DNA from: Candidatus Aveggerthella stercoripullorum
GTDB taxonomy: Bacteria; Actinomycetota; Coriobacteriia; Coriobacteriales; Eggerthellaceae
Assembly (NCBI GenBank): GCA_018712955.1
Contig: DVGB01000030.1
Span: 1-35,114, forward strand
DNA length: 35,114 bases
Direction of reading: 5' to 3'
The notes under the pieces are model-generated. The model made no database searches and was not told the DNA's origin. It worked only from the letters and a program-made list of their open reading frames with translations. Position numbers and translations under genes: made by a program. The stretch's first letter is position 1, and each line of letters begins with the position of its first letter. Below, one piece after another: positions 25,345 through 29,508 of this stretch.

Positions 25345-26454
25345 ATGACTGCTGCTTACAAAATCTGCCTTTTGCCGGGCGACGGCATTGGGCCTGAGAT
25401 TATCGCCGAAGGCGTAAAGGTGCTCGACGCGCTTGGCGCGAAGTACAACGTGACGTTCGAGTACACCGAAGCGCTGCTGGGCGGTGCTGCCATCGATGTG
25501 ACGGGCACGGCGCTGCCACAGGAGACGTTGGATGTGGCGAATGCGTCCGATGCTGTGCTGCTGGCGGCCGTCGGCGGTCCGAAGTGGGACACGACCGACC
25601 CGGAGAAGCCCCGTCCCGAACAGGGGCTTTTGGGCATTCGCAAAGCGCTCGGCCTCTATACGAACCTGCGCCCGGTGAGGATTTTCAACGCGCTTGCAGG
25701 TGCGTCGACGCTTAAGCCCGAGGTGATCGACGGCGTGGATTTGGTCATCGTCCGCGAACTGACGGGTGGTTTGTACTTTGGTCGTCGTGAGCGCTTCTAC
25801 GATGAAGAAGGGGCCGGGGTGAACGGTGCCTGCGGACAGCGCGCGTACGACACGCTCGAGTACCGCGAATACGAGATCGAGCGCATTGCGCGGCAAGCAT
25901 TCGACGCCGCGCGCAAACGCCGCAGCAAGGTCACGAGCGTGGACAAGGCGAACGTGCTGGAGACGAGCCGTATGTGGCGCGAGATCATCCACCGTGTTCA
26001 CGATGCGGACTATCGGGACGTCGAGCTGGAGGATTTGCTGGTCGACAACACCGCCATGCAGCTCATCAACCGTCCGGCCGACTTCGACGTCGTGGTCACC
26101 GAGAACATGTTCGGCGACATTCTTTCGGACGAGGCGGCTCAGATCACCGGCTCGCTGGGCATGCTGGCCAGCGCCAGCCTGGGGGATGGAACGGCGCTCT
26201 ACGAACCGAGCCATGGCAGCGCGCCGGACATTGCAGGCCAAGGCATCGCGAACCCGCTTGCGCAGATTCTCTCGGTCGAAATGATGCTGCGCTACAGTTT
26301 CGGCATGAACGATGCGGCAGACGACATCAATCGTGCGGTGACCGCCGTGCTCGACGAGGGCTGGCGCACGGGCGACATCAAGGGTCCGGACACCGCGGCG
26401 GACCACGTAGTGGGTACCGCGCAGATGGGCGACCTGGTGGTGGCGCGCCTGTAG
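25345..26454 (+). CDS. leuB: 3-isopropylmalate dehydrogenase
   Basis: NAD+-dependent oxidative decarboxylation of 3-isopropylmalate. It is 369 aa. Family signature parts are [11 protein letters not shown] (N-terminal), [47 protein letters not shown] and the metal/coenzyme region [23 protein letters not shown], with HGSAPDIAG near the end. ATG 25345 follows AGAAGGA (25330-25336). The 131-base gap from leuD contains AGCGAAGG (25217-25224) and CCTTCGCT (25302-25309), a loose long-range pairing followed by CTCTTTT. A strong terminator ends the operon. Confidence 0.95.
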
Positions 26455-26476
26455 GCGCAAAGAATAGTGCATGCTG

Positions 26477-26522
26477 AACGGCCCGGGTGGCGGAGTGGAC
26501 GAACTGCCTCCCGGGCCGTTTT
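26477..26522 (+). terminator. Terminator of the leu operon
   Basis: An 11-bp outer stem, AACGGCCCGGG (26477-26487) with CCCGGGCCGTT (26510-26520), a T-T mismatch and a 5-bp inner stem (GGCGG with CTGCC), ending in TTTT (26519-26522). Its 5' half reads like the start of a tRNA-Leu, see findings. Confidence 0.88.
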
Positions 26523-26685
26523 GCGCAGAGAGGCGCAGTGCCAACGCGCTCGTCGGTTCCGACGATTCGAGTTTTGCTGCATGTTGCTACGGGTAAGGGT
26601 TGTGGGCGCAGGCAGAGAGGTGGTGCTCTTGCGGCCGCATGCGCCCAGGACCCAGCATGTCTTCGAGGCATTTCGCCGTACCTCA

Positions 26686-26716
26686 TTGACTTTGAGCGGA
26701 CTTCAAGTCCTAGCAT
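26686..26716 (+). promoter_or_regulatory. MerR-type promoter/operator for the CMD gene
   Basis: TTGACT (26686-26691), a 19-base spacer and TAGCAT (26711-26716). The spacer length is that of MerR-family promoters. The dyad CTTTGAG-CGGA-CTTCAAG (26690-26707) fills the -35/spacer boundary and fits CTTNNAG-N4-CTTNNAG, as in AdhR/NmlR-type sites. The regulator gene is not in the window. Confidence 0.75.
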
Positions 26717-26814
26717 GCATTCCGAGCTGTTGGACGGCATGAGAGCTGGGCGGCAAAACAATCGGCATAACGTGGCTGCTTGGCAAGTCTGTTGGCAGGG
26801 AAGGGAGCGAGAGC

Positions 26815-27552
26815 ATGGCAGAACAGCAAAAGTCGAGGGGTCTATGCGCGGGGTTCGAGGAAACCGATCCGGAATTAGCGCGCATTGTGAGCGCGTTCAT
26901 GGACGAAGTGCAGCACGAGGAGGCAGTGCAGCTTCCCGCGCGCACGCGCGGGCTGTGCGTGGCGGCCACGCTGCTCGGCTGCCAGGGTATCGACGCATTT
27001 CGCGCGGAGCTGCCGGGCATTCTTGATGCGGGCGTGACCCCGGTCGAGCTGCGTGAGGTGGTCTACCAGGCGGTGGACTATGTGGGGATTGGCCGTGCGC
27101 TGCCCTTCGTGAACGCGCTGGACGAGGTGCTTACGGAGCGTGGCGTGGAGCTTCCGTTCGAAGCGCAGGGCACTGTTGTGGCGGGCGATCGCCTGCAGAA
27201 AGGCAATCAGGCGCAGGTGGATATCTTTGGCGAGGGCATGCGCGGTGCGTGGGAGACCTGCCCTTCCGAGCGTGCGGTCGTGAGCCGTTGGCTTGCCGCG
27301 AACTGCTTCGGCGACTACTACACGCGCGGTGGTCTTACGCTGGCAGAGCGCGAGATGGTCACGTTCTGCTACCTGGCGGCGCAGGGTGGGTGCGAACCGC
27401 AGGTGACGGCGCACGCTGGCGGCAACCTGCGCATGGGCAACGACAAAGCGTTCCTTTACGCCGTCGTGCACCAATGCCTGCCCTACATCGGCTATCCACG
27501 CAGTCTGAATGCGCTTGGCTGTGTGGACAAAGCTGCCGAATCTCAGGCGTAG
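26815..27552 (+). CDS. Carboxymuconolactone decarboxylase (CMD) family protein, two-repeat
   Basis: AhpD-like alpha-helical family; members act as decarboxylases, as peroxidase partners, or have unknown redox roles. It is 245 aa and has two CMD repeats: about 40-110 (ARTRGLCVAATLLGCQG ... ELREVVYQAVDYVGI) and 165-235 (LAEREMVTFCYLAAQGGCEPQVTAHAGG ... HQCLPYIGYPRSLNAL). The second retains a Cys-x7-Cys-x5-His set; the exact CxxC of AhpD is absent. ATG 26815 follows GAAGGGAGCGAGAG. It is controlled by a MerR-type promoter nearly identical to that of the cupin gene downstream, so the two probably respond to the same electrophile or oxidant signal. True substrate unknown. Confidence 0.8.
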   Translation: MAEQQKSRGLCAGFEETDPELARIVSAFMDEVQHEEAVQLPARTRGLCVAATLLGCQGIDAFRAELPGILDAGVTPVELREVVYQAVDYVGIGRALPFVNALDEVLTERGVELPFEAQGTVVAGDRLQKGNQAQVDIFGEGMRGAWETCPSERAVVSRWLAANCFGDYYTRGGLTLAEREMVTFCYLAAQGGCEPQVTAHAGGNLRMGNDKAFLYAVVHQCLPYIGYPRSLNALGCVDKAAESQA

Positions 27553-27595
27553 ACGACGTCGCTTGCGGTCGTTGCGGCGGCAACGCATGCGCGCC

Positions 27596-27626
27596 TTGAC
27601 TTCGAGCGGACTTCAAGGGATACGCT
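27596..27626 (+). promoter_or_regulatory. MerR-type promoter/operator for the cupin gene
   Basis: TTGACT (27596-27601), 19-base spacer, TACGCT (27621-27626). The dyad CTTCGAG-CGGA-CTTCAAG (27600-27617) differs from the CMD site at one base in 18. The -10 is weaker than in the CMD promoter, in keeping with activator dependence. Confidence 0.75.
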
Positions 27627-27742
27627 TGCGACGCAGAAAGGACGATTGCGCGTTCGGGCCGAACGGGTCTTCAAAGAAGTGAAACGCGATGCTCGCAGAA
27701 TCCTTCGGCCATGTCCGAACGCCGCGTGAAAGGAGCAACGAT

Positions 27743-28171
27743 ATGGACGATCAGAAGCTTGCAGAGGCGAAGGCCAGCTTAGGTGCGGGCATGGCGTTCC
27801 CGATTGGTGAGCCGAACCCGTTCGGGCAGTATTTTGTCGGGCAGAGCTACCTGGCGCAGTTGACGATAGAGCGCGTGGGCGTCAACAACGTCACGTTCGA
27901 GCCGGGCTGCCGCAATAACTGGCACGTGCATCACGGCGCAGGTCAGATTCTGATTACCGTAGGCGGTCGCGGTTGGTATCAAGAGTGGGGCAAACCCGCC
28001 GTCGAGCTCAAGCCGGGCGTCGTCGTGAACATACCGCCGGAGGTCAAGCACTGGCACGGTGCGGCGAAGGACAGCTGGATGGCGCATATCGCCTTTTCTG
28101 AGCCGGTTGAGGGCGCATCGAACGAGTGGCTTGAGCCGGTCGATGACGAAGAGTACGCTGCGGTGGAGTAA
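27743..28171 (+). CDS. Cupin-domain protein
   Basis: 142 aa, single small beta-barrel cupin. Motif 1 is GCRNNWHVHHGAGQILITVGG, with metal-ligand histidines and Gln where many have Glu; motif 2 is PPEVKHWHGA. N-terminal GQSYLAQLTIERVGVNNVTFEPG also fits the short cupins encoded beside CMD proteins in gut bacteria. ATG 27743 follows AAAGGAG (27729-27735); the frame is open upstream but crosses the leader. The shared MerR operator is the main functional link with the CMD gene. Enzymatic activity cannot be assigned. Confidence 0.86.
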   Translation: MDDQKLAEAKASLGAGMAFPIGEPNPFGQYFVGQSYLAQLTIERVGVNNVTFEPGCRNNWHVHHGAGQILITVGGRGWYQEWGKPAVELKPGVVVNIPPEVKHWHGAAKDSWMAHIAFSEPVEGASNEWLEPVDDEEYAAVE

Positions 28172-28213
28172 GCATTCGGCAAAAGCGCGTTACAAGTTCG
28201 AGAAAAACACGCG

Positions 28214-28246
28214 AAGCGGGCGGGAGAAAATCGTGCCCGCTTTTTT
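28214..28246 (+). terminator. Terminator of the cupin gene
   Basis: AAGCGGGC (28214-28221) pairs with GCCCGCTT (28235-28242) over a 13-base loop, ending in six T (28241-28246). It is 42 bases after the stop. Confidence 0.9.
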
Positions 28247-28252
28247 GTGCGC

Positions 28253-28258
28253 TATAAT
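28253..28258 (+). promoter_or_regulatory. Consensus -10 for the MFS gene
   Basis: A perfect TATAAT, 38 bases before ATG 28297 and immediately after the cupin terminator. The -35 position falls in the terminator stem and has no match. Confidence 0.55.
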
Positions 28259-28296
28259 CGCAGGCCGTTTGCGAACGACGAGAGAAAGGCGAGTGC

Positions 28297-29508
28297 ATGG
28301 CGAACGCGGCAGGCATGACGTCCAAACAATGGCTTCCGCTTATCGGGCTGGCGTTCTCTGCTTTCATGCTCAACACGTCGGAGTTTATGCCCATTGGCCT
28401 GCTCGTGGACATCGCGGCAGACTTTTCTATGACCGAGGCAGAGGCGGGCGCCATGATTTCGGTCTATGCGCTGGCGGTGCTGGTTTTGTCGTTACCGCTC
28501 ATGATTGCGGCATCGCGTTTCGCCTTCAAAAGACTCATGCTTGCGGTCATTGCCGTGTTCGGCGTGGGACAGCTTTTTTCGGCATTGGCGCCTAACTTTG
28601 CCCTGCTTGTCGGCGCACGGTTGGTGGTTGCGGCGGCGCACGCCGTATTCTGGTCTATCGCTTCGCCCATGGCGGTCTATGCGGTCGACTACCGGCGTTC
28701 TTCCTTGGCGCTCAGCTGTATAGCCACCGGGTCCGCCGTCGCCGTCGTGTGCGGTCTGCCACTGGGGCGTGCTGTCGGCTTGGCCCTGGGCTGGCGCATG
28801 ACGTTTGCATGCGTGGCGGCGGCAGCGTTCATCGCACTGGTTTATCTATGGCGCACGCTTCCGAAGATGCCGGCGGGCAAGCGCTTTACCGTGAAGGAAC
28901 TGCCCGCTCTGCTGAAGATTCGCCCGCTTACGGGTGTTTTCGTCGTGACCGTGGTGCTGGCAGGCGCCCATTTCGTGGGATATAGCTACATAGAGCCGTT
29001 TTTGCTGCAGGTTACCGGCATGCCGGAAGGGCTGGTCACCGTTGTTTTGGCCGTATACGGCGCAGCAGGCATCCTGGGAAGCGCCCTTTTCTCGCGCCTG
29101 TACGGCATGATGCGGTTTGCTTTCGTGCGCACTGCCATCCTGGGCGTCACCGGGGCATTGGCGCTCATGGCGGTCTCGTCTGCTACGTTCGGCACGTCTA
29201 TCGCCGATTGCGTACTGTGGGGCATGTGCTACACCGCGTTCAATGTCGCGTTCCAGGCCGAGGTGCTGAAATACGCGCCCGCCGACGCGTCCGCAGTGGC
29301 AATGTCCATTTATTCAGGCCTGTTCAACCTCGGAATCAGTGGGGGTACGCAAGTGGGCGGCATGGTGGTGGCTGCCGGGGGTATCGGTGCAGTCGGCTAT
29401 GTGGGCGCAGCGTTCGGCGTTCTGGCGTTCGTGCTGTGCAGTGCGCTCATGATTCGGCCGATGCGCCGTGCGGACGCGTTGTCTGTCGAAGTCGCGTCGC
29501 GCAAATAA
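28297..29508 (+). CDS. MFS exporter, DHA1 sugar/drug efflux (SotB-like)
   Basis: Inner-membrane proton-coupled exporter of 403 aa with 12 predicted spans. The N-terminal LAFSAFMLNTSEFMPIGLL is the SotB/YdeA/YdhP-type start (TxEFxPxGLL) of the DHA1 group. The between-span-2-and-3 loop SRFAFKRLMLAV, motif AHAVFWSIASPMAVYAVDYRRSS, and the second-half NVAFQAEVLKYAPADASAVAMSIYSGLFNLGI also fit. ATG 28297 follows GAGAAAGGCGAG. The substrate (arabinose/IPTG-type sugars, purine analogues or drugs) is not predictable. It stands alone. Confidence 0.84.
   Translation: MANAAGMTSKQWLPLIGLAFSAFMLNTSEFMPIGLLVDIAADFSMTEAEAGAMISVYALAVLVLSLPLMIAASRFAFKRLMLAVIAVFGVGQLFSALAPNFALLVGARLVVAAAHAVFWSIASPMAVYAVDYRRSSLALSCIATGSAVAVVCGLPLGRAVGLALGWRMTFACVAAAAFIALVYLWRTLPKMPAGKRFTVKELPALLKIRPLTGVFVVTVVLAGAHFVGYSYIEPFLLQVTGMPEGLVTVVLAVYGAAGILGSALFSRLYGMMRFAFVRTAILGVTGALALMAVSSATFGTSIADCVLWGMCYTAFNVAFQAEVLKYAPADASAVAMSIYSGLFNLGISGGTQVGGMVVAAGGIGAVGYVGAAFGVLAFVLCSALMIRPMRRADALSVEVASRK

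Follow-up and report, generated by a model that had tools for sequence, protein, structure and literature searches.

Two near-identical MerR-type promoters at a CMD-cupin locus point to an NmlR/AdhR-like regulon in Eggerthellaceae

NmlR/AdhR proteins respond to formaldehyde or methylglyoxal, and the regulons under their control typically include a thiol-dependent alcohol dehydrogenase. The regulon described here is headed by P0001, a predicted regulator of this class, and differs from the known examples in its targets. AdhR of Bacillus subtilis controls yraC, a gene of the carboxymuconolactone decarboxylase (CMD) family, and requires Cys52 for its response to aldehydes (PMC4776306), and MerR promoters have spacers of 19-20 bp and are activated by distortion (PMC9909328). 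P0001 resembles AdhR (YraB) in being a MerR protein of the NmlR class, in conserving Cys52 and in having a CMD-family target, in our case according to a predicted site. The targets of AdhR are adhA, yraA and yraC, whereas here we find aldo/keto reductases, cupin proteins, flavodoxins, iron alcohol dehydrogenases and lar genes. Neither an adhA-type gene nor a thiol-dependent alcohol dehydrogenase was seen behind a site among the assigned targets, with eight sites having no assigned gene. Compared with NmlR of Haemophilus and Neisseria (adhC-estD), P0001 is likewise a short MerR protein in which the position of the sensor cysteine is kept and for which NmlR is the best curated model, but it falls below the cut-off of that model, and its targets do not include the glutathione-dependent adhC/estD pair.

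The window, i.e., the whole stretch of 35,114 nucleotides that was analysed, contains a CMD gene and a cupin gene on the forward strand, each preceded by its own promoter. The features of this locus are as follows:

26477-26522, + strand: terminator-like hairpin, AACGGCCCGGG ... CCCGGGCCGTT plus a T-run (seen by eye; the loop exceeds the limit of the hairpin scan)
26686-26691, + strand: -35 element TTGACT of the CMD promoter (read from the sequence and matched by pattern)
26690-26707, + strand: operator CTTTGAG-CGGA-CTTCAAG, in the middle of the spacer of the CMD promoter (matrix score 32.9)
26711-26716, + strand: -10 element TAGCAT of the CMD promoter, after a 19-bp spacer (register kept over 66 foreign sites)
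26815-27552, + strand: gene for a two-domain CMD-family protein of 245 amino acids (PF02627, E=4e-20)
27596-27601, + strand: -35 element TTGACT of the cupin promoter (read from the sequence and matched by pattern)
27600-27617, + strand: operator CTTCGAG-CGGA-CTTCAAG of the cupin promoter (matrix score 36.0)
27621-27626, + strand: -10 element TACGCT of the cupin promoter, after a 19-bp spacer (read from the sequence and matched by pattern)
27743-28171, + strand: gene for a cupin protein of 142 amino acids, with an alternative longer frame from 27689 (PF07883, E=7e-8)
28216-28246, + strand: terminator-like hairpin GCGGGC ... GCCCGC plus six T, past the cupin gene (seen by eye; the loop exceeds the limit of the hairpin scan)

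Direct reading gives TTGACT-TTGAGCGGACTTCAAGTCC(19)-TAGCAT for the CMD promoter from 26686 and TTGACT-TCGAGCGGACTTCAAGGGA(19)-TACGCT for the cupin promoter from 27596, with the gene starts 98 bp and 116 bp downstream, respectively. This is exactly what an earlier note on this DNA had described, namely TTGACT followed by exactly 19 bases and a -10 before both genes, and the operators are as it quoted them. Its general notation for the dyad, CTTNNAG-N4-CTTNNAG, was wrong, as the symmetric form is CTTNNAG-N4-CTNNAAG, with the arms CTTTGAG and the reverse complement of CTTCAAG. At both promoters, the distance of 19 bp between the -35 and -10 elements lies within the 19-20 bp of MerR-type promoters and the inverted repeat is centred in the spacer, with no essential difference from known long-spacer promoters of this type. 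The promoter scan detected no sigma-70 promoter with a 16-18 nt spacer in 26400-28330. The arms of the window operators (TTTG/TTCG and TTCA) differ from the commonest GG/CC arm form.

The first hairpin trails the upstream gene, which belongs to the isopropylmalate/isocitrate dehydrogenase family. Since terminator-like hairpins, as judged by eye, lie on either side of the CMD-cupin pair, the pair looks like a transcription unit of its own. The CMD protein stays far below the cut-off for PcaC (4-carboxymuconolactone decarboxylase; 43.1 versus 155.7 bits), so that a phenolic or protocatechuate pathway, as one might read from the CMD name, is unsupported, and the phenolic or catechol signal suggested in the earlier note finds no support either. 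For the cupin protein, the nearest NCBIfam model is (R)-mandelonitrile lyase, with 119.9 bits under a cut-off of 140. Any specific chemistry assigned to the two proteins from these matches would be of low confidence.

Within the window, CTTYGAGNNNNCTTCAAG is matched exactly by the two sites only; every other match needs three mismatches. The scores listed above were obtained with a matrix trained on 66 sites from other genomes, the genome under study being excluded. The same two dyads read backwards score 9.0 and -0.1, the rest of the window reaches at most 0.8, and the best-scoring position on either strand of 4 Mb of simulated sequence reaches 14.4. With at most one mismatch, TTGACTTNGAGNNNNCTYNAAG matches five sites of the own genome, along with about 75 sites in 23 of the 60 genomes of the family, compared to no match of the reversed pattern in the same 60 genomes; among the reversed loci, no matrix score exceeds 18. 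A chance origin of the sites is rejected on the matrix null and these reversed controls. Although the pattern used to search for the training sites left out the -10, this element emerges at the 19-bp register (first position T in 59 and last position T in 62 of the 66 sites), which provides independent support for a spacer of 19 bp.

Three MerR genes were found in the own genome. One of them, at 9897-10286 of contig C101, encodes P0001, a protein of about 130 amino acids with a MerR DNA-binding domain (PF13411, 67.9 bits). Its best NCBIfam model is NmlR (E=7e-45), ahead of other models by about 90 bits, with a score that misses the cut-off of the NmlR model (151.8 versus 175 bits); the closest solved structure is 3gp4, a MerR-family protein. 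Homologues with an identity of at least 43% are present in 24 of the 60 family genomes. P0001 has Cys52, a residue that stands in a KCMR motif in 23 of the 24 homologues, the remaining one having a cysteine in a diverged context. Each of the 24 genomes has a site directly before the regulator gene. Sites with at most one mismatch occur in 20 of these 24 genomes versus 3 of the 36 others (Fisher p=3e-9), and two of the three exceptions, which have near-perfect sites, encode a MerR protein that belongs to a more distantly related subgroup. This second subgroup (L133-L138) has divergently placed sites of the TTGACTTAAAG type. A matrix built solely from sites in the regulator's own promoters gives 26.8 and 24.7 for the window sites, versus 20.8 for the other MerR subgroup. 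The earlier assignment of the dyads to the MerR family (AdhR/NmlR-like) is thus supported by the co-occurrence with the regulator, the matrix scores and the self-sites, and with P0001 the genome does encode an NmlR/AdhR-like protein.

When the own genome was searched by mismatch pattern, nine candidate sites were obtained in total, including the two in the window. Others lie before the regulator gene, three aldo/keto reductase genes (on contigs C39, C69 and C90) and, at the end of a contig, a larE-type gene. One candidate (G000:C40:36152, score 25.1) has no recognised gene behind it, and another (G000:C59:10584, score 15.5) lies before an FdhD-like frame. Throughout the family, genes behind sites were assigned by homology. 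Aldo/keto reductases come first behind 23 sites, those of the own genome counted in, and the other first genes encode the regulator, CMD, cupin or CMD-cupin proteins, LarB, LarE, flavodoxins, iron alcohol dehydrogenases and DUF362 proteins. The motif therefore does not occur at random positions, a possibility that had been raised against it, as the sites precede genes of related function in the own and in other genomes. The name "CMD-cupin regulon" proposed earlier is correct in that both genes have sites, but too narrow, the range of targets being far wider.

CMD genes lie behind predicted sites in genomes G000, G020, G031 and G041, and cupin genes have sites of their own in G027, G041, G003 and G058. 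Gordonibacter sp. 28C, a relative in culture, likewise has such sites at its CMD locus. Only 5 of 20 CMD loci bear a site, and cupin loci with a site are likewise a minority, indicating that the membership of CMD and cupin genes in the regulon varies among species. One genome encodes both domains in a single protein with one operator before its gene (L106:3079-3828), a fusion that supports a joint function of CMD and cupin. In a set of 80 CMD loci taken from many different gut bacteria, a cupin gene is found nearby in 42, an aldo/keto reductase gene in 41 and a flavodoxin gene in 38; the recurrence of these neighbours shows that the gene set coheres beyond this regulator. The sister species has one site before its CMD gene, with the cupin gene behind and no second site. 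Separate promoters for the two genes, as put forward in the earlier note, are thus present here, but the single promoter of the sister species makes the layout a local variant rather than a rule.

A further group of targets is related to the nickel-pincer cofactor. In 19 of the 24 genomes with the regulator, larB or larE follows a site, and gene orders of the type merR-(larE)-larB-larC occur in ten. In most regulator genomes, larB, larC and larE are located behind the operator or within the merR operon (L319-L338; G000:C101:11819-12095). As in the lactate racemase system larA-larBCE, homologues of larB, larC and larE are among the targets, with NCBIfam matches above cut-off. Unlike that system, there is no canonical LarA (PF09861) in the 24 regulator genomes, where other divergent LarA homologues may be overlooked, and no larA lies within about 8 kb of the lar operons. 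Weak PF09861 matches in two regulator genomes correspond to the divergent NPN isomerase group 22.

We consider it about 85% probable that both window sites act as MerR-type promoters within a single NmlR/AdhR-like regulon and are bound by P0001, which would probably be activated via Cys52. Our confidence is high for a MerR-type regulon with P0001 as its regulator and moderate for an electrophile as the signal, which would be plausible by analogy given the presence of Cys52. If P0001 works like known MerR proteins, a dimer would bind the dyad within the 19-bp spacer and, when not activated, hold a promoter whose -35 and -10 elements stand too far apart. Activation would probably come about when a reactive carbonyl or another electrophile modifies Cys52; P0001 would then kink and untwist the spacer so that RNA polymerase could use both elements. 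The CMD and cupin genes would then be induced jointly with the aldo/keto reductase genes, the regulator gene itself and the lar genes.

The frequent lar operons could, however, point to an effector other than an electrophile. It is possible, albeit clearly less probable, that the same regulator acts on the same promoters in response to a metabolite, a metal or the redox state rather than to an aldehyde or quinone, and that the regulon mainly serves the nickel-pincer cofactor and 2-hydroxy-acid/carbonyl metabolism, with the CMD, cupin and aldo/keto reductase proteins as parts of that catabolic route. The lar genes behind sites and the merR-lar gene orders argue for this alternative, as does an Intestinimonas MAG (L289), in which larE and larB adjoin a cupin and a CMD gene with a LysR-like gene nearby, so that the set coheres in a different neighbourhood. 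On the other hand, the cysteine required for aldehyde sensing in AdhR is conserved, and carbonyl detoxification, too, would suit targets such as CMD, flavodoxin, iron alcohol dehydrogenase and the aldo/keto reductases. Slightly more doubtful still is a narrower version, according to which the NmlR-like protein would be a dedicated regulator of nickel-pincer cofactor synthesis, with the CMD-cupin proteins and aldo/keto reductases in the pathway of an NPN-dependent enzyme that is not a canonical LarA.

We regard it as unlikely that another MerR protein controls the two window promoters. Another MerR gene does exist on contig C102, the own genome is 86% complete, so that a further regulator may be missing from the assembly, and in other genomes comparable divergent sites accompany the MerR proteins of the second subgroup. 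Yet the C102 protein has a serine at the alignment position of Cys52 and no site before its gene, which makes it an improbable candidate; the genome of the sister species (G020), which is 98% complete, has one strong P0001 homologue and the same CMD site; and the matrix comparison favours the class of P0001. The third MerR gene, on contig C87, was rejected, as its product looks HspR-like, judging from the adjoining DnaJ-like gene, and no site precedes it. Finally, it is very improbable that the two sites are nearly identical by chance or through a recent copying event that has no role in regulation. The sister species does not have the second site before its cupin gene, as such a copy might imply, but the scores are far outside the null, the cupin genes with their own sites in four other genomes and the CMD-cupin fusion gene with its operator speak against it, and the sequences around the two sites show no relationship to each other. 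Copying of a larger stretch, and with it a single duplication creating both promoters, is thereby ruled out. On contig C102 (L003), both the MerR gene and the adjoining aldo/keto reductase gene appear to be in broken frames, due to either an assembly error or decay.

For the Eggerthellaceae, a family of gut bacteria, no such regulon was found in the literature searched. The analysis supplies its probable regulator, P0001, along with a matrix for the operator and a list of targets, and it brings together orphan genes for CMD, cupin and iron-sulfur aldo/keto reductase proteins in one response. Control of a CMD gene by AdhR is already known; the predicted NmlR-like control of lar genes may be new. 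The literature searched, which covered few subscription papers, contains no NmlR-like or MerR control of lar genes, and we take this as a lead rather than as proof of novelty. If the lar link is functional, the shared operator offers a route to the missing NPN-dependent enzyme, and if a dedicated nickel-pincer regulator is the true reading, the regulon would suggest that the cofactor has a use not yet recognised. DUF362 genes are located behind the operator in two genomes. PF09861, the LarA N-domain, matches DUF362 proteins weakly, two of them slightly over cut-off (L310, L314, L315; L080, L079), and on the basis of these matches DUF362 proteins and LarA are possibly distantly related.
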